A stretch of 45,507 bases of DNA from Spirochaetales bacterium (GTDB lineage: Bacteria; Spirochaetota; Spirochaetia; SZUA-6; RPPD01). Numbering within the stretch: the stretch's first letter is position 1; every line of letters begins with the position of its first letter. The notes beneath the pieces were generated by a model. It worked only from the letters and a program-made list of their open reading frames with translations. It had not been told where the DNA came from and did not search any database. The stretch is from contig JAFGJO010000004.1 of the NCBI GenBank assembly GCA_016929065.1, forward strand, positions 1 to 45,507, given 5' to 3'. Shown piece by piece: positions 6,593 to 22,460 of the stretch. A program made the translations under genes and the position numbers.

Positions 6593-7678
6593 ATGGAAAC
6601 CTTTAAGAAACTCTTTACAAAAGAAAAGAATTTATACCTCATTTCCGCAATCGGGACCTTTGTCATTACATGGGCGGTGAATCTTGCCTTCTTTCTCGAT
6701 AATCCCGGTTTTGTGGGCATCCAGCTTCATCCCTATCTGCTCATTGTGGTACTGACAGCCTCACTGTATGGATATACCAGGGCAATGGTCACCACTGCAG
6801 GGGTCTCACTCATCTACACAGGCTGTATTTTTCTCCGGATATTCACACAGGGCGAGGACCTCACCCGGATATTTCAGTTTTCCTATTTCAGTCCGTTTAT
6901 CAGTTTTCTTGTGCTGGGCACATTGGTCGGAATGCTCACAGACCGTCATAAAAAAAACCTGTTGTCCATGAATACAAAACTTGAGGAAAACGCGGTTCAC
7001 ATAGACAATCTCCATACGGAACTGAATATTCTACAAGAGCGCAACTCCGTTTTGAAACAAAAGGCAATGACAAACCGTGAAGTGCTTTCCATGCTGTATA
7101 ACATCGTCAACCGAATGAGCACACTTGATCTGAACGAACTGCACACAGCAATCCTTGAAACATGCGAAGAACTTCTTGGGGCCGGAAAATCTGCCGTGTA
7201 CATGCGTCAGGGGGACCGCCTGGTTCTGTGCACCTCACGCGGATATAAATCCGATGAAGTTCCCGCTCCGCATCAGCGGATCCTGAAGCACACAATCGAA
7301 GAAAAAAAAGTTTTTTCAGTACAGGATTTTCATGAAAACGGAAAGCGGATTCCAAATCCGGTCTTTATCTCTGCACCCCTTTTCATCGGAAAAGACGGGG
7401 ATTCGGCAGGAGTCATCTGGATCGAATCTATTCCATTCCTGCAATATTCTCCGGTAACACTCAGGATCGCGGGACTCATTGCGGACTGGGCTTCCTTATG
7501 CCTTGGAAACATTTTCGCATTCGAGGCATTGAAAAACCGAACGGAAGGAAAAAACCAGAAATTGTACTTTGACAAAGTCCATAATGCTCTTGCGAACAAC
7601 TTCGACGGTGTCTTCGCATACGGAACACCCTTTACCGATATTGAAAAAGAGATAAGAAAGAAGATCTCACTCCAGTAA
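6593..7678 (+). CDS. pelD: PelD-like membrane GAF protein lacking the c-di-GMP-binding GGDEF domain
   Basis: Inner-membrane regulatory subunit of a Pel-type polysaccharide apparatus. About four membrane helices lie within residues 14-115, followed by a coiled coil (~118-162) and a GAF domain (~168-320; core strands around SAVYMRQGDRLVL and PVFISAPLFIG). Known PelD proteins continue into a degenerate GGDEF domain that binds c-di-GMP; this one stops about 40 residues after GAF, at 361 aa. The identification rests on this architecture plus the directly following pelE, pelF and pelG homologues. It is first in the operon, 4 bases before pelE. Activation must use another signal, perhaps the kinase-like protein at the operon end. 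Confidence 0.75.
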   Translation: METFKKLFTKEKNLYLISAIGTFVITWAVNLAFFLDNPGFVGIQLHPYLLIVVLTASLYGYTRAMVTTAGVSLIYTGCIFLRIFTQGEDLTRIFQFSYFSPFISFLVLGTLVGMLTDRHKKNLLSMNTKLEENAVHIDNLHTELNILQERNSVLKQKAMTNREVLSMLYNIVNRMSTLDLNELHTAILETCEELLGAGKSAVYMRQGDRLVLCTSRGYKSDEVPAPHQRILKHTIEEKKVFSVQDFHENGKRIPNPVFISAPLFIGKDGDSAGVIWIESIPFLQYSPVTLRIAGLIADWASLCLGNIFAFEALKNRTEGKNQKLYFDKVHNALANNFDGVFAYGTPFTDIEKEIRKKISLQ

Positions 7679-7682
7679 TGCA

Positions 7683-8636
7683 ATGAAAAAGACGATTCTC
7701 GGAATAATAATTGAACTCGCCGCATTTGTAATTCTGATTTTTTCAGAAAGATGGGGGATCCCTTATACATTCGCGGTGTACGCACACATCTGGGGAGTAT
7801 ACCTGTTTACAAAAGGGCTTGACCTGAAACTTTCCGAGATCCATTTCACACGGGAACTGTGTTTTCTCTTTGCCTTCTTTTTTCCCATAGCCGGCATGAC
7901 AGGAATACTTTTTTATCTGTTTGTATTGAAACAGATTGACGACACAGTACTGGGTGCATTTTCGCACTCCGATGATGACTTTGCCGGACAGGAAAAGGGA
8001 GAAAATGCGAATACCATCATAGAGTATATTCAATTACCATCGCTCCCGGCCGCACCGCTGCGAAAAAACCAGATAGACACATTATTTGGCACACTTCTCT
8101 CACACGAACATGACATTGCCACCGGATTGCTCGACCGTGAAAAAATGAAAAACACCTATTACACCGTTGATGAATTTGAAAATGAACAGGCAAAATACAG
8201 GAAAAAAATCAATTCACTTGAAAGTCTCTGCGCCAATAATCCATCTGACATCGGGCAAATCAATGCACTGGCAAATATTCATTTCGAATATGCCACGACC
8301 CTGGTCGATGATCACCATATACGAAAACTGCATCTTCAAAAAGCGATGAAACTTTACGAATCAGTCATCGATTCTGTCGGGAACGAGCTGTACCTTTTGG
8401 AAAAACTTCTACATATACATTTCTTTCTCGACGACATAAACGGCACCCTGGGGTATTGTAAAGAAATATTAAAAAGAGATCCTGCATACAGCCCGGCCCA
8501 TCTGAGACTTATGGAATGTTTTTATCATAAAAAAGACTTCAAACGTCTCGCACAGGCTGCACAGAATGCACGGCAGATATTGAAAGCCAATGATTTTGTC
8601 AGGGATATCGCTGAAATGTGGCACACCTATGCATGA
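7683..8636 (+). CDS. pelE: PelE-like membrane protein with TPR-like repeats
   Basis: Two or three hydrophobic segments occur in residues 5-85, followed by a soluble helical region with tetratricopeptide-like pairs from ~155 to the end (for example the segment around PAYSPAHLRLMECFYHKKDF). In Pel systems PelE is a membrane-anchored scaffold that contacts the other inner-membrane subunits. At 317 aa it is shorter than the Pseudomonas protein (~450). Primary-sequence similarity is weak; the call depends on topology and on its place between pelD and pelF. It overlaps pelF by 8 bases. Confidence 0.65.
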   Translation: MKKTILGIIIELAAFVILIFSERWGIPYTFAVYAHIWGVYLFTKGLDLKLSEIHFTRELCFLFAFFFPIAGMTGILFYLFVLKQIDDTVLGAFSHSDDDFAGQEKGENANTIIEYIQLPSLPAAPLRKNQIDTLFGTLLSHEHDIATGLLDREKMKNTYYTVDEFENEQAKYRKKINSLESLCANNPSDIGQINALANIHFEYATTLVDDHHIRKLHLQKAMKLYESVIDSVGNELYLLEKLLHIHFFLDDINGTLGYCKEILKRDPAYSPAHLRLMECFYHKKDFKRLAQAAQNARQILKANDFVRDIAEMWHTYA

Positions 8637-10098
8637 TGTCTGCCTGATTATTGAGAATCATGGAAACGTTGAACAAACAGGCCTGCCTTCAGCGGTCATC
8701 CATCTGATACGATCACTTCCCGACATCAGGTTTGCGGTTTTTTCCATTACCCGAAAACATTTCGCACTCAATTCACTCCTGGGGGAAATCCCCGCCAACC
8801 TTCACGAGTATATCCAGTTTACCATAAACGAGGAAAGTCTGCTCAAAGGAAAAACCCCTCAGCGCAAAGCGGAAAAAGAATTCTGGCTGAAACTGAATGA
8901 ATTATATAATACACCGCTCGAAGAGAAAATTCGTTTTTTTGAATCGGTCATTCAGGATTTGGCGGTTGATACGCACCGTGTCATCAATTATTCAGATATC
9001 ATCCGCTCCCGCAAATTCTGGGACCTGAACACCAGTCAATATAAAAAATATGCCTCACATATCCCGTTTATAGATTACACATGGATATTCCGGACAACGC
9101 AGCTGCCATTTTTTCAGCTGATGCATGCAAATATTCCGCATGCCAAAATCTACCATATTTTTTCACCAAGATATGCTGCATGTGCAGGATTAATTGCGAA
9201 AATGCGATTCCGTTCTCATCTGATATTTGATATTCAGGAAAATACCCCACTCGTTGAAAATCTGAAACTGGAAACATTTTCCATAGACTCAACGGGAAAT
9301 AAACATGAATCATCATTCACCCCGTCCACGTTCGACATTTATAAAAAAACATACAATGCAAATACAAAAATGTTTCATTTTTTGGCAAGCTTTTATTCCG
9401 ACTTCATCATCGTTCATAACAGAAATCCGCAGCCTCTGTTTGATGATGAAGGAATCAAACACAAGTATGTGTTTGTCCCGCCCGGCATGGAAGCTCCCCG
9501 TACGGCAGACAGCGTACTCCAGTCAAAACAAAGGCCCTGTATCGGTATTGTCGGAGAAATAAATCCGCATGGAGACATTAAAACATCCATTAAAGCGGGA
9601 AAATTACTGCAGAATGATGTCCGCGATATCTGGTTTAAAATATTGAGTATTGGAAACACAAATGCATTTTACATGAAAGAGTGTATCGATTTGAAAAATT
9701 CACTGGGGCTGAATTTTTCCATGGAGATTGTTCACGAACAGCATCACCTGAAAACACTTTCATGCTGTGATGTGGTGATTTTTTCCCAGGGGAACGGGAG
9801 CGGCGAGAACCTTCTCCTGACTGCATTGCAGCTGGGAAAACCGATTATCGGAACAAATGAACCGGTATATCACCGGATTATACAGGGTCACTCCGAGGAA
9901 GACCGCAATCTGGGAGAATGCGGGCTGTTTATCAATACTGGAAGCCCTCACGAAATCGCACAAACCGTCCAGATAATATTGAATGATAAAAAACTGAACA
10001 AGGAAATGTCACGGATAGCACAGCGCCGTTTTGAATTATACTATTCAAAATCAACCGGATATAAAACGTATGAATCATTGTACAGGAATTATATCTGA
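8629..10098 (+). CDS. pelF: PelF-like GT4 protein with substituted catalytic residues
   Basis: PelF is the cytosolic GT4 glycosyltransferase that makes Pel polymer from UDP-sugar. This 489-aa protein keeps the family outline: N-terminal MHDVCLIIENHGN, the middle block around HNRNPQPLFDDEGI, then FVPPGME and DIKTSIKAG. The donor-site residues differ. The Arg and Lys of the usual GRVxPIKDIK block are Glu and Gly (GEINPHGDIK). The EX7E motif is replaced in SQGNGSGENLLLTALQLGKP, with Gly and Thr where the two Glu normally lie. The N-terminal GG(V/I)xxW motif is also reduced to GLPSAV. I chose the ATG at 8629 because it matches the PelF N-terminus; the frame is open further upstream. It may be inactive or have changed chemistry. 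Confidence 0.75.
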   Translation: MHDVCLIIENHGNVEQTGLPSAVIHLIRSLPDIRFAVFSITRKHFALNSLLGEIPANLHEYIQFTINEESLLKGKTPQRKAEKEFWLKLNELYNTPLEEKIRFFESVIQDLAVDTHRVINYSDIIRSRKFWDLNTSQYKKYASHIPFIDYTWIFRTTQLPFFQLMHANIPHAKIYHIFSPRYAACAGLIAKMRFRSHLIFDIQENTPLVENLKLETFSIDSTGNKHESSFTPSTFDIYKKTYNANTKMFHFLASFYSDFIIVHNRNPQPLFDDEGIKHKYVFVPPGMEAPRTADSVLQSKQRPCIGIVGEINPHGDIKTSIKAGKLLQNDVRDIWFKILSIGNTNAFYMKECIDLKNSLGLNFSMEIVHEQHHLKTLSCCDVVIFSQGNGSGENLLLTALQLGKPIIGTNEPVYHRIIQGHSEEDRNLGECGLFINTGSPHEIAQTVQIILNDKKLNKEMSRIAQRRFELYYSKSTGYKTYESLYRNYI

Positions 10099-10132
10099 TA
10101 CGGTGCACTATATTAAAGGATGAAAGAACAGA

Positions 10133-11563
10133 ATGAGGGAAATAACATTTCATTTATCAGCCATTGAGAAACATGTGACCGATCCGCAGCTTGAGAAAAA
10201 GTACCTGGAAACACCAATCTACATTACAAGTCCCTGGCTGCTTTTGTTTCTCTGCTTTGCACTTGCAGGATTCATTTCCTATATATTCAAAAGTGAAACC
10301 GAGGTTGATATCAATTACGGCACACTCATGTATGCTTTTACCGGTGCGCTTTTTATATCGGGCACACTCAGTATTCCTCTCATGCGGTATATCATGTTTC
10401 AAAAAGCTTCTATTCAGCCCCACCTTTTCCGTGCATCCCTGATCGGACAGCTCTCTCTGGTTGCCGTGTTTTCTTTTTTTATTGGTGCCGCCATTTTTCT
10501 TCCGTTCGGACTGCCATTAAGCTACAAGATATTCGCCATTATTTTCTTTATCCTTCTCACCTGCTCTTTGCTTCTTTTTATGGTACAGTCATCACTGAAA
10601 TATTTTCCCTTGCTGTCTGTTTTTTTCTTTACCCTGTCTGTTCTTGTGCCTGTTGCCGGGATGGCCGGGAAGGCATTATTCGGACCGCCAGGATTTATTT
10701 TGTCATTAACAATAGCCCAGATGATTGTTTTTTTTGTGCAATGGTTTCTCTCTTTTCACGATGCGACCCATCTGTACCGGGTAAATCTGACTTCATTCCG
10801 TTTTGCAGTGAAAGACCCCATTGCAATTGCGATCGGGTTTTTGTGCACTTTTGGTTTCCTGAGTGATAAAATCATGTACTGGATTACCGCTCCCGGTACT
10901 GCTTCGGCAATGTACCCGATCGCCCACGATTACAATATTGGTTTTTTTCTTGCATTCTGTATTACCCTGCCGGCGTTTGTGTATTTTTTCGTTTTCGGGG
11001 AAAAATCAATTTCGAAATATTACCGCCGGTTTTATAATCAAATTTGGCATCGGGCGCCATTCGAGCAGATCGAAGAGGAACAGAAGGCGTTTTATCATCA
11101 TCTGCTGACCGTCAGTTATATTACCATGCAGATACTGTTGTTTCTGGTATTCATTTCCAGTTATTTTGCAACCCAGATATTTTCTACGCTGGGGCTTTCC
11201 CTGGATGACATCGTCACCTTTCGCATTGCAGCATGGGGAAGTGCATTGTACATTATTTTTACCTGCATCAGCATTCTCCTGTACTATATGGATTTCCAGA
11301 AACCTGTATTGATTTTCTATATCATATTTTTTGCCTGTAATATCACAATATCTGCTGTCAGCACGTTTGTATTCAACAATCATTCGGCGTACAGTTTTTC
11401 CATTGCAAGTGCAATAGCCCTCACGTCCGCACTCGTATTCCTTGTTTATTGTTTGCGGAATATACTGTATATTCACTTTCAACGGGTACCTTTGAGCTAT
11501 CAACTCAGAAAATCAATATCTCATGATAAAGGGATATATTTATTAAAAAGGGATAATTTATGA
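10133..11563 (+). CDS. pelG: PelG-like polytopic exporter (Wzx/MOP-type)
   Basis: A 476-aa inner-membrane protein with about twelve hydrophobic helices (clear ones near 33-50, 62-80, 100-125, 130-150, 155-180 and then to ~455). PelG is the MOP-superfamily-like channel subunit of Pel synthase. The N-terminal motif LEKKYLETPIYITSPWLLL, the loop FSFHDATHLYRVNLTSFRF and the FYHHLLTVSYITMQ segment fit PelG-like proteins. Length equals the family norm (~456). It ends in ATGA, overlapping the next start by 4 bases, so the kinase-like protein is translationally coupled to it. Confidence 0.8.
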   Translation: MREITFHLSAIEKHVTDPQLEKKYLETPIYITSPWLLLFLCFALAGFISYIFKSETEVDINYGTLMYAFTGALFISGTLSIPLMRYIMFQKASIQPHLFRASLIGQLSLVAVFSFFIGAAIFLPFGLPLSYKIFAIIFFILLTCSLLLFMVQSSLKYFPLLSVFFFTLSVLVPVAGMAGKALFGPPGFILSLTIAQMIVFFVQWFLSFHDATHLYRVNLTSFRFAVKDPIAIAIGFLCTFGFLSDKIMYWITAPGTASAMYPIAHDYNIGFFLAFCITLPAFVYFFVFGEKSISKYYRRFYNQIWHRAPFEQIEEEQKAFYHHLLTVSYITMQILLFLVFISSYFATQIFSTLGLSLDDIVTFRIAAWGSALYIIFTCISILLYYMDFQKPVLIFYIIFFACNITISAVSTFVFNNHSAYSFSIASAIALTSALVFLVYCLRNILYIHFQRVPLSYQLRKSISHDKGIYLLKRDNL

Positions 11564-13497
11564 ACATCGAAAAAATACTGAAGGGCAATGCCCTGTTCGC
11601 CTATATTCCAAATGACATCATCAAGTCGATCACCACTTTTTTCAAGGAACAAAAAATAACCCGTTCCTTACCAGCCGTACAGATGAATAATCCCGATGAC
11701 TGCTTTTTTATCATTACCAGCGGAAAAGTCAAGGTTCATTATATTCAGAACATAGACCAGGAACTGGGCGTCGGCGATTATTTCAGCGAGATGGTGCTGT
11801 TCAATCAAAAATCACGGGTTCAGCATGCGTTCCCCATCGGTGATTCCGCGACAGTACTTTCAATCGAAAAAAAAGATTTTGTTCATTGCCTTGATGCATA
11901 CCCGCTCCTCGCCACCGTGATCACAAGCATTTTGTCTCAACGGCTGAGCTCACGCGGGATCGCCGGTTATGAACGGACAATAGCCAGCTATACAATCATT
12001 GATGAAATCATGTCCCAGGAAAAGGAAATTTCATTCATTGGGGAGCATTCAATTCTGAAAAGGCCGGTCATGATCCAGCTGATTCCCCATCTTTTTATTT
12101 TTGATCCCGAATACAAACAGCGGCTGCTCAATAAAATGAAAGTTGTTGCCAATCTGCCGCCCGACTATATCATCCGTCCAACGGATATGGTTCAGGCATA
12201 TAACACCTATTTTGTGGTCTACGATATCGAAGGAGGGATACCGCTCTCTGAAATCGCGGAAAAAACCCGATCAATCCCCCATCCGATTATTTCATACATC
12301 ATCCTTGAAACAGCACGGGTGCTTTCTTTTCTGCATTCAAAAGGCCTCATCCATACGGATATCCGTCCTGAAAATATCATGATCACGATGAATGGAGATA
12401 TCCGCATCGCCAATTTCGGCATCATGCATCCCGATCACTGTATTCCGGAATATATGCCGCCGGAACAGCTTGAAAAAAAAGTGATCGATCGTACTGTGGA
12501 TATTTATGCTCTGGGAGTGATTGCCTATCTCCTCGCTGCGAACAGACTCCCCTGCGAATCAAAAGAACTGCATACCCTTCTTAAGCTCAAGCTGAACCGC
12601 GAATACACACCGCTTCAGGAAATGAACCCCCTCCTCCCCAATTCCCTGCTCCAGTTTGTCTCACGTGCGCTTGAACCAAAATCCGAGAAGCGGCTGGAGA
12701 ATTGTGCGAATCTGCCGGAATTGTTTGCCTTATGGCTCAATCCGGAAAAACTGCACCAAAAATCCGAAGGAAAGTTAGAACCGACAGCTTCGTCCCGTGA
12801 ATCATTCATTCAATGGATGAACAAAAAGTTCTTTCAGCCGGACGACAAGAACAGCACCAGAAGCAACAGAAAAAAAATCAAGATACTGGGTACTGATCTC
12901 ATGAAAGAGAAAAAAAGCGGATATGAATCTTTATTTGAACAACAGGATGAATTTTATTCATTCAAGCTGCTGACCTTTGAAGAATTTGTCGAGCAGCAAA
13001 TTGCCTCTGGTGCAAAAAAGGCTTTTCTGGACAACAAGGGAGAACTCTCCTCATATTTCCAGTCTCTGGAACATGAACGCCAGGAACTGGTCATTCTTCA
13101 TTTGATCACCCTCTCCCTTCTTCAGGCAAAAACAAAAAAAGATATTTTCTCAACCATCATGCAAATGCTGGGATTGTTGGAAAAGTCCGGAAAATGGGTA
13201 CTGCTCTCCAAACGGGAAAAAAAGATAAAAAATCAGGCGGAACGGCTTGCTTCAGGAGCAAATTATTCACTCGACGCGTTCAGTGACCATTCAATTATTG
13301 CAAAAGCGGAAACAATCAAAAAGGTTGAAGTGTTCCGTGAAAAAAATTCATATGTATTGCTTTGTCCTGTTTACGCGGGAAGTAAATATATCGGATGCAT
13401 CTGTCTGGAAGACCGGCTGAAACCCGCCGTAGACAGCCGTCTGAATTTTTATTCAATGTTTTCCAAAATTACCCCGGCGGCAAGAATTACCATTTAA
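11560..13497 (+). CDS. cNMP-binding-domain / pseudokinase / GAF fusion protein
   Basis: Cytosolic signalling protein, 645 aa, in three parts. Residues ~1-125 resemble a cyclic-nucleotide-binding domain (FIITSGKVKVH, GVGDYFSEM, with E77 and R86 at the phosphate-cassette positions, but FGE reads FSE). Residues ~145-390 resemble a Hanks-type kinase. The catalytic loop is HTDIRPEN (D267, N272 kept), but the VAIK Lys is Gln173 (VMIQ), DFG is NFG (Asn285), APE is PPE and the glycine loop is absent. Residues ~500-645 resemble a GAF domain. It is coupled to pelG and lacks any membrane segment. Loss of the Lys and DFG Asp predicts little or no phosphotransfer; it may serve as an allosteric sensor for the Pel-like complex. 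Confidence 0.75.
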   Translation: MNIEKILKGNALFAYIPNDIIKSITTFFKEQKITRSLPAVQMNNPDDCFFIITSGKVKVHYIQNIDQELGVGDYFSEMVLFNQKSRVQHAFPIGDSATVLSIEKKDFVHCLDAYPLLATVITSILSQRLSSRGIAGYERTIASYTIIDEIMSQEKEISFIGEHSILKRPVMIQLIPHLFIFDPEYKQRLLNKMKVVANLPPDYIIRPTDMVQAYNTYFVVYDIEGGIPLSEIAEKTRSIPHPIISYIILETARVLSFLHSKGLIHTDIRPENIMITMNGDIRIANFGIMHPDHCIPEYMPPEQLEKKVIDRTVDIYALGVIAYLLAANRLPCESKELHTLLKLKLNREYTPLQEMNPLLPNSLLQFVSRALEPKSEKRLENCANLPELFALWLNPEKLHQKSEGKLEPTASSRESFIQWMNKKFFQPDDKNSTRSNRKKIKILGTDLMKEKKSGYESLFEQQDEFYSFKLLTFEEFVEQQIASGAKKAFLDNKGELSSYFQSLEHERQELVILHLITLSLLQAKTKKDIFSTIMQMLGLLEKSGKWVLLSKREKKIKNQAERLASGANYSLDAFSDHSIIAKAETIKKVEVFREKNSYVLLCPVYAGSKYIGCICLEDRLKPAVDSRLNFYSMFSKITPAARITI

Positions 13498-15003: not shown

Positions 15004-16482
15004 GTGGCAAGAAAAATCATCATAATTGGAGCAGGACTGGCGGGACTTGCCGGAGCCGCCCTTTTGGCGAAAAAAGGATACAAGGTTGTGGTACTGGAAA
15101 AAAACAGCATACCCGGCGGCGTGGCAGGCAGATTTGAAAAAAGTGGTTTTCTCTTTGACACCGGTCCGACCTGGTATCTGATGCCAGAGGTGTATGACCG
15201 GTTTTTCGGATTGTTCGGAAAAAAACCGGGTGATTATTACACCCTTCACCATTGCAATCCATCCTACAAAATAATATTTGAAGGCCAGGGCGAGGCAGTT
15301 ATCTCCCGCGACCAGGAACATAACCGAAATGTTTTTGATTCCTTTGAGACTTCCGGTGGACACAAATTAAAACGGTTTCTGGAAAACTCCAAAGAAAAGT
15401 TTTCCATCGCAGTCGCCAAATTCCTGTACAGGGAATATACATCAATACTGGATTTTGCATCACCCCGGCTGCTCCTCGACGGATTGCGCCTCAATATTTT
15501 CGATACACTTCATTCATTCGTGAAAAAATATTTTTCCGACCATCGTCCCCAAAAAGTAGTGGAATTTAACACTGTTTTTCTGGGCTCAAGCCCTTTCTCC
15601 ACACCGGCCTTGTATTCTTTGATGGCGCATGCAGACATCACACAGGGGGTCTATCACCCTGCCGGAGGAATTTATAAACTGGTAGAAGCACTTGTTTCAT
15701 TGGGCAGCGAATATGGGGTCGAATACAGATATAATCAGGAGGTTACCGGTATTGAGTGTGCAGACAGAACAACAACCGGTGTACAAACAGCCAACTCATT
15801 TGAATCTGCTGATATTGTTGTTTCTGCTCTTGATTATCATCATACCGACACCGCACTGACTCCAAAAAAATACCGTAATTATTCAAAACGATACTGGAAC
15901 AGCCGCATTCTTGCCCCTTCGGCATTTTTGATATTTCTTGGACTCAATAAAAAGATTCCACAGCTTGAGCACCATAATTTTTATTTTGCCGAAAATTGGG
16001 ACAGGCATTTTACCGAAATATTCAACAAGCCTGCCTGGCCGGAAAATCCGTCCTACTACATTGGTGTCCCCTCCAGGACAGATCCAACTGCCGCACCAAT
16101 AAATTGTGAGAATATTTTTATCCTGGTGCCGACCGCTCCGGGACTGGATGATCCCGATACCATCAGGGAAACCTTTGCAGCCAAAATTATTTCCCATATT
16201 GAAACACAGCTCAATACTCAGATAAAAAAGCACATCATATATCAGCAAGTATTTTCACAAAGAGATTTCTTTCATCACTATTATCTTTTTAACGGAACAG
16301 CTCTGGGCCTCTCGCACACACTGTTTCAGACTGCCCTGTTCAGGCCTTCCAGGAAAAATAAAAAACTGAAAAACATGTATTATACCGGCCATTACACACA
16401 ACCGGGGATAGGGATGCCCATGGCAATAATCGGAGCAGAACTGCTTGCAGACAGAATAATAAAGGAACAGCCTCATGAATAA
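15004..16482 (+). CDS. crtI: Phytoene desaturase
   Basis: FAD-dependent desaturase converting phytoene to lycopene by successive dehydrogenations. The N-terminal dinucleotide fold reads IIIIGAGLAGLAGAALLAKK with the acidic end at VVVLEKNSIPGGVAGR, followed by the family's FDTGPTWYLMP. The C-terminal carotenoid-desaturase signature is present as YYTGHYTQPGIGMPMAIIGA, preceded by LGLSHTLFQTALFRPS. The length of 492 aa is typical. Translation starts at GTG behind GGAG. It overlaps crtB by 8 bases. The second CrtI-family protein in this cluster is more like CrtD, so this one is the probable lycopene-forming enzyme. The number of desaturation steps is not evident from sequence. Confidence 0.9.
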   Translation: MARKIIIIGAGLAGLAGAALLAKKGYKVVVLEKNSIPGGVAGRFEKSGFLFDTGPTWYLMPEVYDRFFGLFGKKPGDYYTLHHCNPSYKIIFEGQGEAVISRDQEHNRNVFDSFETSGGHKLKRFLENSKEKFSIAVAKFLYREYTSILDFASPRLLLDGLRLNIFDTLHSFVKKYFSDHRPQKVVEFNTVFLGSSPFSTPALYSLMAHADITQGVYHPAGGIYKLVEALVSLGSEYGVEYRYNQEVTGIECADRTTTGVQTANSFESADIVVSALDYHHTDTALTPKKYRNYSKRYWNSRILAPSAFLIFLGLNKKIPQLEHHNFYFAENWDRHFTEIFNKPAWPENPSYYIGVPSRTDPTAAPINCENIFILVPTAPGLDDPDTIRETFAAKIISHIETQLNTQIKKHIIYQQVFSQRDFFHHYYLFNGTALGLSHTLFQTALFRPSRKNKKLKNMYYTGHYTQPGIGMPMAIIGAELLADRIIKEQPHE

Positions 16483-17284
16483 CGTTTTCCAGAAAACGTT
16501 CAAACAGGGAAGCACCACCTATTATAACTCAAGTATTTTTTTTCCAAAAAAAGTCAAAAAGGATGTATTTATTTTATACAGTTTTGTCCGGATTGCAGAC
16601 AATTTTGTGGATTCCATTCCACAAAATGCTCAAGGGTTTAATGAATTCAAGACACACTACCAGCAGGCGGTTCAAGGCCAGCCGTCAAACAACACCATTA
16701 TTGATTCATTCGTGGATTTGTTGCACAGGAAATGTTTTTCTGTAAAATGGGTCAATGCATTTATTCATTCGATGGAATGTGACCTCTCAAAAACCGAATA
16801 TAATACCATGGAAGAAACATTAGAATATATGTACGGTTCAGCAGAAGTGATTGGATTGTTTATGTGCAGAATTTTAAATCTGCAGGAACAGGCTGAATAT
16901 GCAGCATCCATGCAGGGACGGGCAATGCAATATATCAATTTCATTCGTGATATCAAAGAGGATGCAGAGCTTGGACGGAGATACCTCCCGCTCACCGATA
17001 GCGGACTTTCTTCTTTGACTGAACCGGCTGCCAGGGCTGCACCCGGTCTTTTTACGAGTTTTATCCGAAGGGAAATCGAGCGGTATAAAACATGGCAGGA
17101 TGAAGCAAACGCCGGATTCCACCTTATTCCCAAACGGCTTCGTATTCCCATCCGCACCGCCGCAGACATGTATCTGTGGACTGCAGAAAAAATCTGGAAA
17201 AATCCATTTCTAATTTTTCAAACCAGGGTGAAACCGTCACGAACACGAATACTAATGCAGCTCGTGTTCAATATATTCAGGTGA
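16475..17284 (+). CDS. crtB: Phytoene synthase
   Basis: Condenses two GGPP to phytoene, the first committed step. The squalene/phytoene synthase family is shown by the Asp-rich DNFVDS motif (~37) and the second one, RDIKEDAELGRRYLP (~155), both binding Mg-diphosphate. YMYGSAEVIGLFMCRIL supplies the central helix signature. At 269 aa it is shorter than most CrtB (~300), mainly at the N-terminus. It is coupled by an 8-base overlap to crtI, and cruF begins 5 bases after its stop. A C30 (squalene/dehydrosqualene) substrate cannot be excluded, but the linked long-chain prenyl synthase argues for C40. Confidence 0.88.
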   Translation: MNNVFQKTFKQGSTTYYNSSIFFPKKVKKDVFILYSFVRIADNFVDSIPQNAQGFNEFKTHYQQAVQGQPSNNTIIDSFVDLLHRKCFSVKWVNAFIHSMECDLSKTEYNTMEETLEYMYGSAEVIGLFMCRILNLQEQAEYAASMQGRAMQYINFIRDIKEDAELGRRYLPLTDSGLSSLTEPAARAAPGLFTSFIRREIERYKTWQDEANAGFHLIPKRLRIPIRTAADMYLWTAEKIWKNPFLIFQTRVKPSRTRILMQLVFNIFR

Positions 17285-17289
17285 TCCCC

Positions 17290-17946
17290 ATGAAAATAAA
17301 AAAACACCTGATATTCTGGCATGACTTTCGCTCCATGATAAAAAATCTCGCAATCATTTATTTAATCGGAATTGCCGGCCATGTAATCCCCGCTACCCGC
17401 ACTATTTTTATTTTCATTACCCCTGTTTCATTATTATTAATAAATATACTGGTACTGCTTCATATTTTTCCGTTCTTTGAAAAAAGACTGTTTTTGTTTT
17501 GCGGAATTACGTTCCTGTTTACCTTCGTGATAGAAATCATTGGTGTTCATACACATGCAATCTTTGGTGCATACACCTATGGCAAAACGCTTGGACCAAC
17601 ACTGCTTGGTGTTCCTCCCCTTATTGGCCTGAACTGGCTCATCATTCTCATTGGTGCTGCTGCGTTTGTCGAACTATTATTTAAAAAAAAGTTTCTCATA
17701 CCTGTCATCGTTCCGCTTATGGCTGTTGCGGTTGATATCATCATGGAACCGGTTGCAGGAAAACTTGATTATTGGCAGTGGGAAAATACAATGGTTCCCC
17801 TCCAGAACTATCTGGCCTGGGCAGGAATTGCGTTCATCGTTTCATTACTGTATACATGTATCAGGATAAAAATAACAAGCGCTGTCCCGGCAATCCACCT
17901 GGGATATCAGGCTGTATTCTTTCTTGCACTTTTATTGTTTGTTTAA
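17290..17946 (+). CDS. cruF: CruF-like carotenoid 1,2-hydratase (PF04240)
   Basis: Membrane protein of 218 aa with about seven hydrophobic helices. Family-typical segments are EIIGVHTHAIFGAYTYGKTL (~95-115), LLGVPPLIGLNWLI, and DIIMEPVAGKLDYWQW (~160-175). CruF adds water across the terminal double bond of lycopene-type carotenoids to give 1-hydroxy derivatives. The frame is open from 17176, but the ATG at 17290 has AGGTGA just before it and gives the usual family N-terminus, whereas the upstream part overlaps crtB in another frame. An unrelated CrtC hydratase is not present here, so this gene should supply the hydroxyl used by the downstream glycosyltransferase. Confidence 0.82.
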   Translation: MKIKKHLIFWHDFRSMIKNLAIIYLIGIAGHVIPATRTIFIFITPVSLLLINILVLLHIFPFFEKRLFLFCGITFLFTFVIEIIGVHTHAIFGAYTYGKTLGPTLLGVPPLIGLNWLIILIGAAAFVELLFKKKFLIPVIVPLMAVAVDIIMEPVAGKLDYWQWENTMVPLQNYLAWAGIAFIVSLLYTCIRIKITSAVPAIHLGYQAVFFLALLLFV

Positions 17947-17961
17947 AATAAGGAAGGAACC

Positions 17962-19032
17962 ATGTTTCAGTATTTATCAGCGAAAAAAAAAGAAATATCT
18001 GACTTTCTGAATGAATTCATGCAGTCCGAGTCAGCCGCATATGCGGCGACCGGACGATTCGGAAAAGATACACTCAACAGACTGTACGAGTTTGCATGCA
18101 GAGGCAAGATGATACGCGGCGGACTGGTTGTCCTTGGCCATGAACTGTTTAACGGCGATTTTTACTCTGAAGCAGTAAAAACTGCTGCTGCCCTTGAATT
18201 GTTCCAGTCAGCATTACTCATCCATGACGACATCATGGACCGTGATACATCCCGCCGTGGAGAGCCAACTCTTTATTATCAGTATGCTGAAGAAAATAAA
18301 GCGGCCGGAATCAATGAGTTCCTTCATATCGGCGAGGCCATGGGAATTTGTGCCGGTGATGTTGCATTTTTCTGCGCGTATACGTTACTTGCCGGCCTTT
18401 CTCTGGATCCTGATAAAAAACAGACGGTTCTTGAGCACATCACGCGTGAAATGGGATATGTCGGCACTGCCCAGATGCTGGATGTTTTTTTCGGCGCATA
18501 CAATGCCAAAACTGCTGACATATCGCAACAAGAGATTTTAAACCTGTACAAATTCAAAACCGGCAGATACACCATCGCGCTTCCCCTCGCCACGGGAGCA
18601 CGGATTGCCGGGGCTTCCATACACAATATTTCCGCTCTGGAAAGCCTGGGTGAAAAACTCGGAATTATTTTCCAGATAAAAGATGATGAACTGGGCCTTT
18701 TTGGGGATACAGAAGATATCGGGAAACCGGTCGGTTCTGATATCCGTGAAGGCAAAAAAACCGTCTTTTACCAGATTCTGCAGCAGCAGGCTTCTGCAAC
18801 AGAGCAGGAAAAACTGTTACATATTTTTGGAAACCCCGATATTACACAGCCTGATATTGATTATGTCCGTAATGTGATTGAAAAAAACCGGGTTCGTGAA
18901 AAAGTATCTGCCATCGTTGACACACTGAAAAAAGAGATTGAAAGCCACATAGCGAATATCGAAATACAAAACACAGACACCCATAAAATCCTTGAAAGCC
19001 TGGTATCCTACAGCATCACCCGCACGATATGA
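17962..19032 (+). CDS. crtE: Geranylgeranyl-type polyprenyl diphosphate synthase
   Basis: Chain-elongating prenyltransferase, probably making GGPP for CrtB. The first Asp-rich motif is HDDIMDRDTSRRGEPT (~90), the second is KDDELGLFGDTEDIGKPVGS (~240), and both flank the usual KFKTGRYTIALPLATG (~195). The length is 356 aa, somewhat longer than bacterial IspA (~300) and in the range of archaeal-type/GGPP synthases. AAGGAAGGAA precedes the ATG, 15 bases after cruF. Chain length is inferred from context. Confidence 0.88.
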   Translation: MFQYLSAKKKEISDFLNEFMQSESAAYAATGRFGKDTLNRLYEFACRGKMIRGGLVVLGHELFNGDFYSEAVKTAAALELFQSALLIHDDIMDRDTSRRGEPTLYYQYAEENKAAGINEFLHIGEAMGICAGDVAFFCAYTLLAGLSLDPDKKQTVLEHITREMGYVGTAQMLDVFFGAYNAKTADISQQEILNLYKFKTGRYTIALPLATGARIAGASIHNISALESLGEKLGIIFQIKDDELGLFGDTEDIGKPVGSDIREGKKTVFYQILQQQASATEQEKLLHIFGNPDITQPDIDYVRNVIEKNRVREKVSAIVDTLKKEIESHIANIEIQNTDTHKILESLVSYSITRTI

Positions 19033-19063
19033 TACATACGTAATCTCATTGTCATTTGGTACG

Positions 19064-19723
19064 CTATAATTCCAGCCTGAAATCAAGGAGAAAATCGCGA
19101 TTATTGATGGCTGCATCACACAATAAAAGATTATCATGATATTTTTTTATAAACAGCTCCCTGTCAGCCACTATTTCCTTTGAGGAAATGACTTCTCCAA
19201 ACCGGACAATAATTTCCGGTTTTTTTTCATTATACGTAGTGATCACACTGGCAACAGGAAGAACTTGTGAGATAACAGGTGAATTGAGAAAATGAGTCAA
19301 ACCTGCCTGGATCGACTGCGGCCGCTTCCAGTACGGCTCCATCTTCCCCTGGGGATAGAACACAATGCAGTTTTTTGAATCTTTCAGCAGCGAATGGAAA
19401 TACAGTATTGTCTGGTGCACACTTTTCGGTTTTCCGGGATCTATTGAAAAAGCACCAAGCTTTGAAAAAAAAGGAAACTGCAGCAGCTGTTGTTCAAGCA
19501 TCATAATCCGGAACTTCCGCCGGGTACGCAGTTTTAAAAAGCAATAGATAATAAATCCGTCCCACCAACTCATATGATTGGGTGTCATAACCAGCGGAAT
19601 ATCATCATTTGTCTGAGGGACATCATTAACCAGCCAAAAATGGCTGAAATTCTTTTTCATTAACCGACGGAAATATGAACCAAAAAATATGGCATGAAAC
19701 TTTGAATCCCTCGCAACAATCAT
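19064..19723 (-). CDS. PlsC-type acyltransferase, candidate carotenoid glycoside acyltransferase
   Basis: Membrane-associated 1-acyl-glycerol-phosphate acyltransferase family member, 219 aa. The catalytic NHxxxxD box is NHMSWWD (~53), the second block is GAFSIDPGKPKS, and the EGTR-like block reads FYPQGKMEPYW (~120), with Pro/Gln instead of Glu-Gly at its start. Similar enzymes (CruD in green sulfur bacteria, CrtO in staphylococci) put a fatty acid on a carotenoid glycoside. The start overlaps the crtD stop by 4 bases with no ribosome site of its own, so it is coupled to crtD. The position in a carotenoid cluster with a glycosyltransferase makes this role more likely than phospholipid synthesis, but that is inference. 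Confidence 0.75.
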   Translation of the reverse strand: MIVARDSKFHAIFFGSYFRRLMKKNFSHFWLVNDVPQTNDDIPLVMTPNHMSWWDGFIIYCFLKLRTRRKFRIMMLEQQLLQFPFFSKLGAFSIDPGKPKSVHQTILYFHSLLKDSKNCIVFYPQGKMEPYWKRPQSIQAGLTHFLNSPVISQVLPVASVITTYNEKKPEIIVRFGEVISSKEIVADRELFIKKYHDNLLLCDAAINNRDFLLDFRLEL

Positions 19724-21195
19724 AAGCTGTATTTCCTGACAAGGCCGGCCGTGATTTTTCCGGAAAGAATTGAAAGGGGAATCCCGCCGCCGGGGTGCGC
19801 ACTGCCGCCGGCAAAATACAGATTTTTTATTGCCCGTGACCGGTTCCCCTGCCGCAGAAACGCCGCCATCATCCCGTTCGATGAAGGCCCGTACAAACTT
19901 CCCTGCCAGCTTCCGGTATCTCTCATGATATCGGGAGGTGCCATTATTTTTTCGGTTTTCAGGTATTTTTGAATATCAAATCCAAAGTGTTTTTGTATTT
20001 TGGCAATTATTCGCTGCCGTGTCCGCTGTATTTCGTTGTGCCAGTTTTGAGATTTACATCGCGGTGCATTCACCATAACATACCAGTTTTCACACCCTTT
20101 TGGAGCATCCTGTGCAGCAAACCGTCCGGAAATATAGATATACACGGTAGGATCATCAGGAATTCGAAACCTGCTGAACAAATCCCTGAATTCCTGTTTA
20201 TAATTATCTGAAAACAAAATTGAATGCGTTGCAAGCCGGGTTGTTATCCCCAGCCCCCAGTAAAATACCAGTGCAGAACTTGATGGTTCTGCAAATCTGT
20301 ATTTCACGGCACCGGGCAGCCAGCGTTTCCGTAACAGATGTTCATACGTCGTACGAACATCACAATTTGACACCACAACATCATACTCAATATTCCGGTT
20401 TTCGACGGCAATTCCATGCACCCGGTTTTTTCTTGCAAGTATCCGGTCAACCTTTTTCCCCGGAAATAAATTTATTTTTTGATTTTTACATAACTCTGTC
20501 AGAGCTTTCGGAATTGCTGCTATTCCTCCTTTGGGGACGACTGCCCCGAGCTGTTCAACATGATGGATAACATTCAGGGTAGCCGGTGTTTTGTACGGGT
20601 TTGAACCGTTAAATGTCGCATACCGGTCACAATACTGGACCATACGGGAATTGTCAAAAAATGATTTATTTGCCTGATGCATGCTGCGAAACGAATCAAT
20701 TCCGGAAATATATTTCCCCGCGTCTTCAAGCCGGATGGATTTAAAGGAATCAATTTCATGAAAACTGTTAAATAAAAAAAGGTCCTTTACCAGATCATAA
20801 ATATTTTTGGTATACAATAAATATCCTGATACTGACTTTTCTGTTATACCAAAAACTCTTGCGGCTTCTCCAATATATTTTTCCTGATCTGTAAATGCGG
20901 TAAACCGGGTTCCGTCCGGATAAAAATAATCACAATTAATTTCCAGAGGAACAAACGAGAGATAGTCTCTCCTGTCTTTATCCAAATACCCGAATAGCTC
21001 ATCGATGATAAAACTCATTGTCACAAGAGTCGGGCCAGTATCAAACCGGAATCCGTCTGCTGAGATTGTTCCCGCTTTCCCCCCAAAATCGAGGTTTTTT
21101 TCGTAACAATCAATATGACAGGAAGAATCTTTGGAGAGATACAATGCAGCCGACAAACCGGCAAGGCCGCCGCCAATGATTGCACAACGCTTCAT
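19720..21195 (-). CDS. crtD: Second carotenoid desaturase, CrtD-like (1-hydroxycarotenoid 3,4-desaturase)
   Basis: FAD-binding CrtI-superfamily protein, 491 aa. The N-terminal fold is AIIGGGLAGLSAALYLSK with YEKNLDFGGKAG and FRFDTGPTLVTM. The C-terminal block around SLYGPSSNGMMAAFLRQGN and FAGGSAHPGGGIPLSILSGK is typical of CrtD and flavobacterial 3,4-desaturases rather than of phytoene desaturase. CrtD acts on 1-hydroxy carotenoids, the product expected from CruF. It has its own promoter, an AAAGGA ribosome site, and a coupled acyltransferase downstream. A diapocarotenoid desaturase or oxygenase (CrtN/CrtP) is a less likely alternative. Confidence 0.75.
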   Translation of the reverse strand: MKRCAIIGGGLAGLSAALYLSKDSSCHIDCYEKNLDFGGKAGTISADGFRFDTGPTLVTMSFIIDELFGYLDKDRRDYLSFVPLEINCDYFYPDGTRFTAFTDQEKYIGEAARVFGITEKSVSGYLLYTKNIYDLVKDLFLFNSFHEIDSFKSIRLEDAGKYISGIDSFRSMHQANKSFFDNSRMVQYCDRYATFNGSNPYKTPATLNVIHHVEQLGAVVPKGGIAAIPKALTELCKNQKINLFPGKKVDRILARKNRVHGIAVENRNIEYDVVVSNCDVRTTYEHLLRKRWLPGAVKYRFAEPSSSALVFYWGLGITTRLATHSILFSDNYKQEFRDLFSRFRIPDDPTVYIYISGRFAAQDAPKGCENWYVMVNAPRCKSQNWHNEIQRTRQRIIAKIQKHFGFDIQKYLKTEKIMAPPDIMRDTGSWQGSLYGPSSNGMMAAFLRQGNRSRAIKNLYFAGGSAHPGGGIPLSILSGKITAGLVRKYSL

Positions 21196-21225
21196 ATATT
21201 CATATCCTTTGACCTGCTGATAAAA

Positions 21226-21255
21226 ATCCTACGACAAACAACATCATTATGTCAA
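21226..21255 (-). promoter_or_regulatory. Promoter for crtD and acyltransferase
   Basis: TTGACA (21255-21250), 18-base spacer and TAGGAT (21231-21226) lie on the minus strand, about 30 bases before the crtD start. The leader contains AAAGGA. Confidence 0.45.
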
Positions 21256-21298
21256 TGAACTTTTCCGCGTACCGGCACAAATGACCATAAATTATTGA

Positions 21299-21327
21299 TT
21301 GAGCTCTTTTAATGTTTTTAGTATCAT
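21299..21327 (+). promoter_or_regulatory. Putative promoter giving a leaderless glycosyltransferase transcript
   Basis: TTGAGC (21299-21304), 17-base spacer and TATCAT (21322-21327) end 8 bases before an ATG at 21336. An earlier in-frame ATG at 21312 would lie inside this promoter and has no ribosome site. A 14-base sequence TGACCATAAATTAT just upstream (21282-21295) recurs at 24562-24575. Confidence 0.4.
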
Positions 21328-21335
21328 ACACCAAG

Positions 21336-22460
21336 ATGTTTATAATAGACCTGCTATTCTATTGTGCAGCTGCCATTGCCCTTCTGTTTTGGTGGTGCGG
21401 CTGGCTCAGCTTATACCATATCCCCCGCCTGCCTTCTGTAAAAACCAGCATCTTGAACAAGACAACAATATCAATTATTGTTCCGGTCCGTAATGAACAA
21501 AACAGAATTATGCCGCTTCTCGCATCAATAAAAAAACTACAGCCAAAACCAAAAGAAGTATTGTTTGTTGATGATGCATCAGAAGACCACACAGTCGCAA
21601 TTATCAAAGCGGCTGGTTTTCGTGTTTTGTGCGCAAATAAAAAGCCGAAAAACTGGCAGGGGAAAAACTGGGCATGCTGGATTGGTGCTCAAAATGCAAC
21701 AGGAGAACAGCTCCTTTTCCTGGATGCCGATACAACTCCGAAACAGCATGTATTGGCATCGCTGCTTATTGCCGCGCAGAAGCACAAAGGAGTAATATCG
21801 GTCCAGCCATTTCACCGTATCAAATATCTTTTTGAGCAGCACTCGCTGTTTTTTAATCTTGTCGTAATGGCGGGGATTGATGCATTTGGTTTTTTTTCAA
21901 AAAAAGGAACTCCAACCGGCTGTTTTGGTCCCTGTATTTTTATCAACAAAGATATTTATTTTCAAACCGGCGGTCATAAGGCAATTAAAACAGAACTGGT
22001 CGATGATGTTTCCTTTGCACATCTCTGCCGGCTGCATAATATCAAGGTTTTTAATTTTGGCGGGAAGGGAATGATCGAATTCCGCATGTACCCGGAAGGC
22101 ATGCAGTCACTTGTGCAGGGGTGGTTAAAAAATCTTTCACGGGCATCAGATCAGTCAAGTTTCCCTGCAGTCACATTTCTGGCATTATGGATTACCGGAA
22201 TATTTTCATGCACCGCGCTTCCTGCTTTTTTATTTTTTTCCTTCTCGGCGGGCAATAGTGCGATTGCATTCATATTGTACTTTATGTATGTTTTGCAGAT
22301 TCTTCTTCAGATAAAAAGGATTGGCAATTTTTCTATTTTTGCCGCAGCAGGTTTTCCCTACTTTGTTGTCTTTTTTGTGATTATATTTTCCCGTTCGGTT
22401 TTTCTGACAAAAATAAAAAAGCAGGTGCATTGGAAAAACAGAACAATTCGTTTCGGGTAA
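21336..22460 (+). CDS. GT2 membrane glycosyltransferase, carotenoid type (CruC/CrtQ-like)
   Basis: Predicted to transfer a sugar to the hydroxyl of the carotenoid. One N-terminal membrane helix (~2-22) precedes a GT-A domain: SIIVPVRNEQ, FVDDASEDHT (~78), the DxD-like LFLDADTTP (~130) and ELVDDVSFA (~210). C-terminal helices lie at ~280-350. The KNWQGKNWAC and GWLKNLSR stretches match 4,4'-diaponeurosporenoate/hydroxy-carotenoid glycosyltransferases. I prefer the ATG at 21336 to the one at 21312 because a promoter-like element ends 8 bases before it. The stop at 22460 touches the dxs stop at 22461, with no bases between the two convergent genes. Confidence 0.8.
   Translation: MFIIDLLFYCAAAIALLFWWCGWLSLYHIPRLPSVKTSILNKTTISIIVPVRNEQNRIMPLLASIKKLQPKPKEVLFVDDASEDHTVAIIKAAGFRVLCANKKPKNWQGKNWACWIGAQNATGEQLLFLDADTTPKQHVLASLLIAAQKHKGVISVQPFHRIKYLFEQHSLFFNLVVMAGIDAFGFFSKKGTPTGCFGPCIFINKDIYFQTGGHKAIKTELVDDVSFAHLCRLHNIKVFNFGGKGMIEFRMYPEGMQSLVQGWLKNLSRASDQSSFPAVTFLALWITGIFSCTALPAFLFFSFSAGNSAIAFILYFMYVLQILLQIKRIGNFSIFAAAGFPYFVVFFVIIFSRSVFLTKIKKQVHWKNRTIRFG

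Follow-up and report, generated by a model that had tools for sequence, protein, structure and literature searches.

An unusual Pel-derived operon in Spirochaetales, with a predicted pseudo-glycosyltransferase and a predicted pseudokinase

Profile matches to PelF and PelG are readily taken as the mark of a polymer maker, and an operon that passes the family models without carrying the known chemistry raises the question what such a set of genes may still encode. A case of this kind lies in a stretch of 45,507 nucleotides (the window), which is a contig (JAFGJO010000004.1) of a 3.49-Mb Spirochaetales genome with a completeness of 95.8% (G000), which we infer to be metagenome-assembled. An earlier note on this DNA had described, at 6593–13497, five closely spaced or overlapping genes that form a divergent operon of the PelDEFG type, to which a signalling-type protein has been added. 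All five open reading frames are there, tightly packed and on the plus strand, and the description is borne out by family models and by the same five-gene layout in other genomes. The operon is real and is an unusual variant of the Pel system, whose usual product is a GalNAc-rich biofilm polysaccharide; it is called Pel-derived here, and not a Pel polysaccharide operon, because neither a c-di-GMP-binding PelD nor a competent PelF was found in it.

Gene content and distribution of the operon

The first gene (6593..7678, plus strand) encodes a PelD-like protein of 361 aa with membrane helices at about residues 14–118, a coiled coil and a GAF domain at residues 180–303 (GAF_3, 30.4 bits, cut-off 27), and with no GGDEF match. 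A search of solved structures with the PelD profile gave nothing significant (best E 0.036), so that the identification as PelD is based on context and on homology to longer spirochaete PelD proteins. The absence of the sensor domain had been noticed correctly, but it is not new: in operons of this type it goes further back, being common to an intact sister operon, and it is known in streptococci. GGDEF is missing from PelD in all four operons of this type and in a second pel locus of one relative (G001), and is present in three scanned PelD proteins of other spirochaete loci. Since the window genome has 16 GGDEF matches elsewhere, c-di-GMP signalling as such has probably not been lost in this organism.

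The second gene (7683..8636, plus strand) specifies a PelE-like protein of 317 aa, which has the right operon position and membrane helices followed by a TPR-like C-terminal part with a weak TPR match, and which matched no PelE family model. The third (8629..10098, plus strand) encodes a PelF of 489 aa (NF038011, an NCBIfam equivalog model, 154.4 bits, cut-off 100; DUF3492, 81 bits, cut-off 23.3); its start was set at 8629 (MHDVCLI...), in agreement with the starts of relatives, the mechanical ORF start being 8590. The fourth (10133..11563, plus strand) encodes a Pel-type exporter, PelG, of 476 aa (PF16933, 144.8 bits, cut-off 29). These are the only PelF and the only PelG above cut-off in the genome. 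The last gene (11560..13497, plus strand; 645 aa) encodes a protein with a cNMP-binding domain and a kinase-like domain, and overlaps pelG by 4 nt (11560–11563), which fits the proposed translational coupling to the exporter; similar short overlaps occur in the relatives. As had been stated, no pelA, pelB or pelC product is present among the 20 window proteins scanned (ORFs up to 26.7 kb). A GH114-type secreted protein is encoded in the same genome, away from the pel genes.

Other parts of the window deserve mention in their own right. At 200–2601, a gene for a 483-aa protein without a Pfam match at 1e-5 shares 4 nt with the beginning of a gene for an ABC-transporter ATPase. A carotenoid-type gene group at 15004–22457 includes two amino-oxidase/CrtI-like oxidoreductases and members of the phytoene-synthase, Caroten_synth, polyprenyl synthetase, acyltransferase and GT2 glycosyltransferase families, followed by a DXP synthase gene on the opposite strand, and suggests that this spirochaete forms a carotenoid carrying sugar and acyl groups. 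A functional tie between this group and the pel operon was considered and dropped as unsupported, the flanks of the relatives having been searched by family in part.

PelD proteins of this type (E <1e-150) were detected in four of 26 genomes searched from the order, and these four have the same five genes in identical order, so that the check for the gene set in other genomes, proposed earlier, yielded three relatives besides the window genome. These are metagenome-assembled Spirochaetales (G001, JAFGSW010000018.1; G002, JAFGGG010000017.1; G013, JAFGWI010000031.1). G000, G001 and G002 represent three genera of one family, and G013 belongs to a sister family. A class-wide search of 395 genomes with the PelD alignment and a phylum-wide search of 393 genomes with the kinase-protein alignment revealed no additional example of the operon. 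Among the kinase matches with fetched flanks (about 1.5 kb per side), the window's own was the only one near PelF, PelG or PelD; a scan of genome contigs with the PelG protein gave no match, and one with the PelD alignment gave the three relatives already named and nothing else. G001, G002 and G013 each have a second pel locus, which lacks a kinase gene. The idea that the operon described here regulates such an intact second locus was rejected, there being none in G000.

Some features of other loci may be recorded here. In the spirochaete loci L031, L032 and L037, pelD lies on the strand opposite pelE-F-G, and the C terminus of PelG is greatly extended (open frames of 578–840 aa), and in L027 (1–1932) and L028 (6707–8713) a gene for a HEAT-repeat protein directly precedes pelF. 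The G001 operon has as neighbours (L021, 74–2492, minus strand) genes that encode an FHA-like protein containing a membrane helix, a serine protease of the trypsin type and a Ser/Thr kinase whose motifs look intact.

In trees of both PelF and PelG, the three operons of the window's family form one clade (100/100) on a long stem, with G000 and G001 as sisters. A branch with support of 88/82 sets the four operons apart in the PelG tree, and this grouping is not resolved in the PelF tree; given the long-branch warning, the evidence for a four-operon group is moderate.

Altered active sites in proteins that are maintained

The claim that the PelF active site has changed was confirmed. In PelF of G000 and G001 the donor-binding Arg and Lys (GRVVPIK), both glutamates of the EX7E motif and the EHG motif are all lost, as is the greater part of the N-terminal loop GGV..W. 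The window protein has DIQE at residues 201–204 (9229..9240), where site-intact relatives have TEHG; at residues 310–315 (9556..9573), which read RVVPIK in relatives, Arg and Lys are replaced by E310 and G315; and at residues 390–398 (9796..9822) EX7E has given way to G390 and T398, all on the plus strand. A competent GT4 enzyme would carry the Arg/Lys pair and EX7E, and all four positions differ here. For PelF of Pseudomonas aeruginosa, R325, K330 and E405 have been proposed as UDP-glucose-binding residues (PMC10185581). Judged by motif pattern, the P. aeruginosa protein being outside our alignment, these would correspond to E310, G315 and G390.

The extent of the change can be expressed by 86 near-invariant columns, defined from 14 PelF proteins of spirochaete loci. 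The G013 operon retains 84 of them, G002 41, G001 37 and G000 32; the G013 protein helped to define the columns, which favours its count, but the other three still differ from it by a wide margin, and its motifs are intact on direct reading. PelF of G002 is intermediate, retaining the Arg and the second EX7E Glu, so that active-site loss is graded, from least in G002 to most in G000 and G001. The earlier suggestion of a different cargo understates the matter, since the sole PelF of the window genome lacks, as far as its sequence can be read, every known catalytic residue. Loss of known catalytic residues is not proof of lost activity. The direction of change was probably from intact to disabled, because the G013 protein and every other PelF looked at are intact.

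An altered site could simply mark a dying gene, but none of the five genes contains a stop codon in any of the three genera of the window's family, even though protein identities across these genera are 24–50% (31–50% by gene between G000 and G001). In a neutral simulation to the same divergence, with frameshifts left out, one lineage acquired on average about 10 stops in PelF, and 12 in the gene of the kinase-like protein. When modelled with AF2 (mean pLDDT 73), the window PelF still had a GT-B fold and matched GT4 enzymes over its whole length (best Z 23.2, 351 residues aligned, 4.1 Å). Because of the open frames, set against the neutral expectation, and the GT-B model, PelF is best regarded as a predicted pseudo-glycosyltransferase of GT4/GT-B fold that probably still folds without the usual active site and is being kept.

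Change extends to PelG, of which 38 near-invariant sites are all retained in G013, 18 in G002, 17 in G000 and 14 in G001; in the window protein the N-terminal MAGIGF motif is altered and 21 of the 38 sites are lost. General fast evolution is therefore part of the picture. As for export partners, the G013 operon adjoins a divergently oriented gene for a 1295-aa TPR protein, which is PelB-like in size and make-up and may be a PelB. Full-length relatives of this protein occur in G012, G050 and G002, with a second one in G013; with the G013 query none was found in G000 or G001. As G001 nevertheless has an intact-looking PelF in its second pel locus, absence of a PelB-like protein is an imperfect marker.

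The last protein of the operon shows a comparable pattern. Its Pkinase match (95.6 bits) covers only profile positions 41–253 and so leaves out the glycine-loop region; the protein also matches cNMP_binding, with 31.9 bits. The VAIK motif reads VMIQ, with Q173 (12076..12078, plus strand) replacing the lysine, the catalytic loop reads HTDIRPEN, and NFG stands for DFG, with N285 (12412..12414, plus strand) replacing the aspartate. Of the Hanks-type motifs, only the HxD aspartate (D267) and the catalytic-loop N272 are kept, and the VAIK lysine, alphaC Glu, glycine loop and DFG aspartate are lost in both G000 and G001. The protein is thus a predicted pseudokinase, as had been claimed. The G002 protein is again intermediate, with VAIK lysine and DFG retained, and the G013 protein has the full motif set (GRGGNG, VAIK, HRDVKPGN, DFG), the alphaC Glu and an ordinary cNMP pocket. 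Thus, what had been called a new signalling protein is indeed an extra gene product, but an ordinary-looking kinase in the sister family that appears disabled in the window. In the cNMP-binding domain (residues 40–113; 11677..11898, plus strand) the phosphate-binding cassette is altered by changes of Gly to S76 and Thr to V87, with R86 kept; the counterpart of R86 is lost in G001 and G002. Loss of the cNMP pocket in the window's family is suggested less clearly than loss of the kinase site.

The proposed cNMP/pseudokinase/GAF architecture held for its first two parts; the C-terminal region had no Pfam GAF match and an hhalign probability below 1% against the PelD GAF domain, and the order of helices and strands in its model is merely GAF-like. 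With a pLDDT of 57, the AF2 model of this protein is of low overall quality, and it served solely to support the kinase fold. Residues from about 485 to 645 include, in the window's family, a strongly conserved basic stretch (LLSKxEKKIKNxAER-like) that is absent in G013.

Possible roles and competing explanations

On balance, we favour the explanation that the operon encodes an inner-membrane complex derived from PelDEFG and extended by a cNMP-kinase subunit; this complex would have given up catalysis but persisted in a role that centres on PelG and makes no polymer. The PelD GAF domain, the TPR part of PelE, pseudo-PelF and the pseudokinase would then serve PelG as a scaffold for binding or as a switch. 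In such an assembly pseudo-PelF may be a docking or gating part, and the pseudokinase and PelD GAF domain may be ligand-sensing or conformational parts. The assembly could move or gate something other than a PelF-made polymer, or act as an envelope sensor, and any action of c-di-GMP would no longer proceed via a PelD GGDEF domain. More tentatively, a whole exopolysaccharide synthase complex may have been repurposed, free of catalysis and yet maintained, with a pseudo-glycosyltransferase and a pseudokinase in the same lineage and with PelG as a non-Pel transporter or sensor. The proposal covers four genomes, all apparently metagenome-assembled, and its substrate, ligand and partner roles are deduced from sequence.

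As the chief alternative it is possible, but rather unlikely, that the operon still encodes a polysaccharide synthase and exporter, with a rearranged PelF active site or another donor, and produces a modified Pel-like polymer. There are GT-B enzymes that function with one of the two EX7E glutamates missing, and such a synthase would agree with the conservation of PelF and PelG together in one operon, with the predicted GT-B fold and with the Arg and second Glu kept in G002. It is harder to reconcile with the simultaneous loss of Arg, Lys, both glutamates, EHG and most of the GGV..W loop in G000 and G001, with the lack of a full-length PelB-like partner in G000, and with the altered MAGIGF motif and conserved sites of PelG. 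An ordinary Pel variant, streptococcus-like in its GAF-only PelD and extended with a regulatory kinase, is an adequate description of the G013 operon, with its intact PelF and kinase and adjacent PelB-like gene, but improbable for the window copy, from which the PelF and kinase motifs are lost.

Non-adaptive decay, by which the operon would be dying in the window's family with frames not yet broken, is quite improbable. Graded loss of the active site from G002 to G000 and G001 could be read in that way, but it would leave unexplained that five genes are free of stops in three genera at such low identities, against some 10 stops expected in PelF, and that PelD is still 50% identical between G000 and G001. 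The earlier note had named intact relatives combined with a decaying copy as its undoing; PelF and kinase are indeed intact in the sister family, though next to a PelD without GGDEF, whereas in the window's family the genes are open and in the same order in three genera. An assembly or contamination artefact, which might be suspected since the genomes seem to be metagenome bins, is highly improbable, as the same five genes occur on four independent contigs from four genera, with fumarase and rubrerythrin-like neighbours in both G000 and G002.

Comparison with known Pel systems

With pelABCDEFG of P. aeruginosa the operon shares the D-E-F-G order, PelF and PelG as recognised by family models, a PelD with membrane and GAF regions and a TPR-type, PelE-like protein, but it differs by the absence of a PelD GGDEF domain, of PelF catalytic residues and of pelABC alongside, and by the extra pseudokinase gene. 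In P. aeruginosa, PelF is brought to the membrane by PelD, PelE and PelG, and soluble PelF alone is inactive in vitro (PMC8461298). The Pel systems of Streptococcus thermophilus and Streptococcus intermedius, in the parts of the reports consulted, resemble the window in having a PelD with membrane and GAF regions and no GGDEF domain (PMC7112168; PMC12345266); the same parts indicate that a degenerate SDR domain is often added to streptococcal PelD, unlike in the window, that aggregation of S. intermedius needs pelF (PMC12345266), and they do not describe a pseudokinase gene in these loci (PMC7112168; PMC12345266). As it passes the PelF and PelG models and yet lacks the known chemistry, the operon of the window is a warning against annotation by family alone. 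Another close system is the sister operon of G013, whose five genes and their order are those of the window and whose PelD is likewise GAF-only, but in which PelF, PelG, the cNMP pocket and the kinase motifs are intact and a PelB-like TPR gene adjoins. Together, the two provide a natural experiment, in which PelD, PelE, PelF and PelG can be considered as a complex apart from catalysis by comparison with an intact sister of the same gene order.
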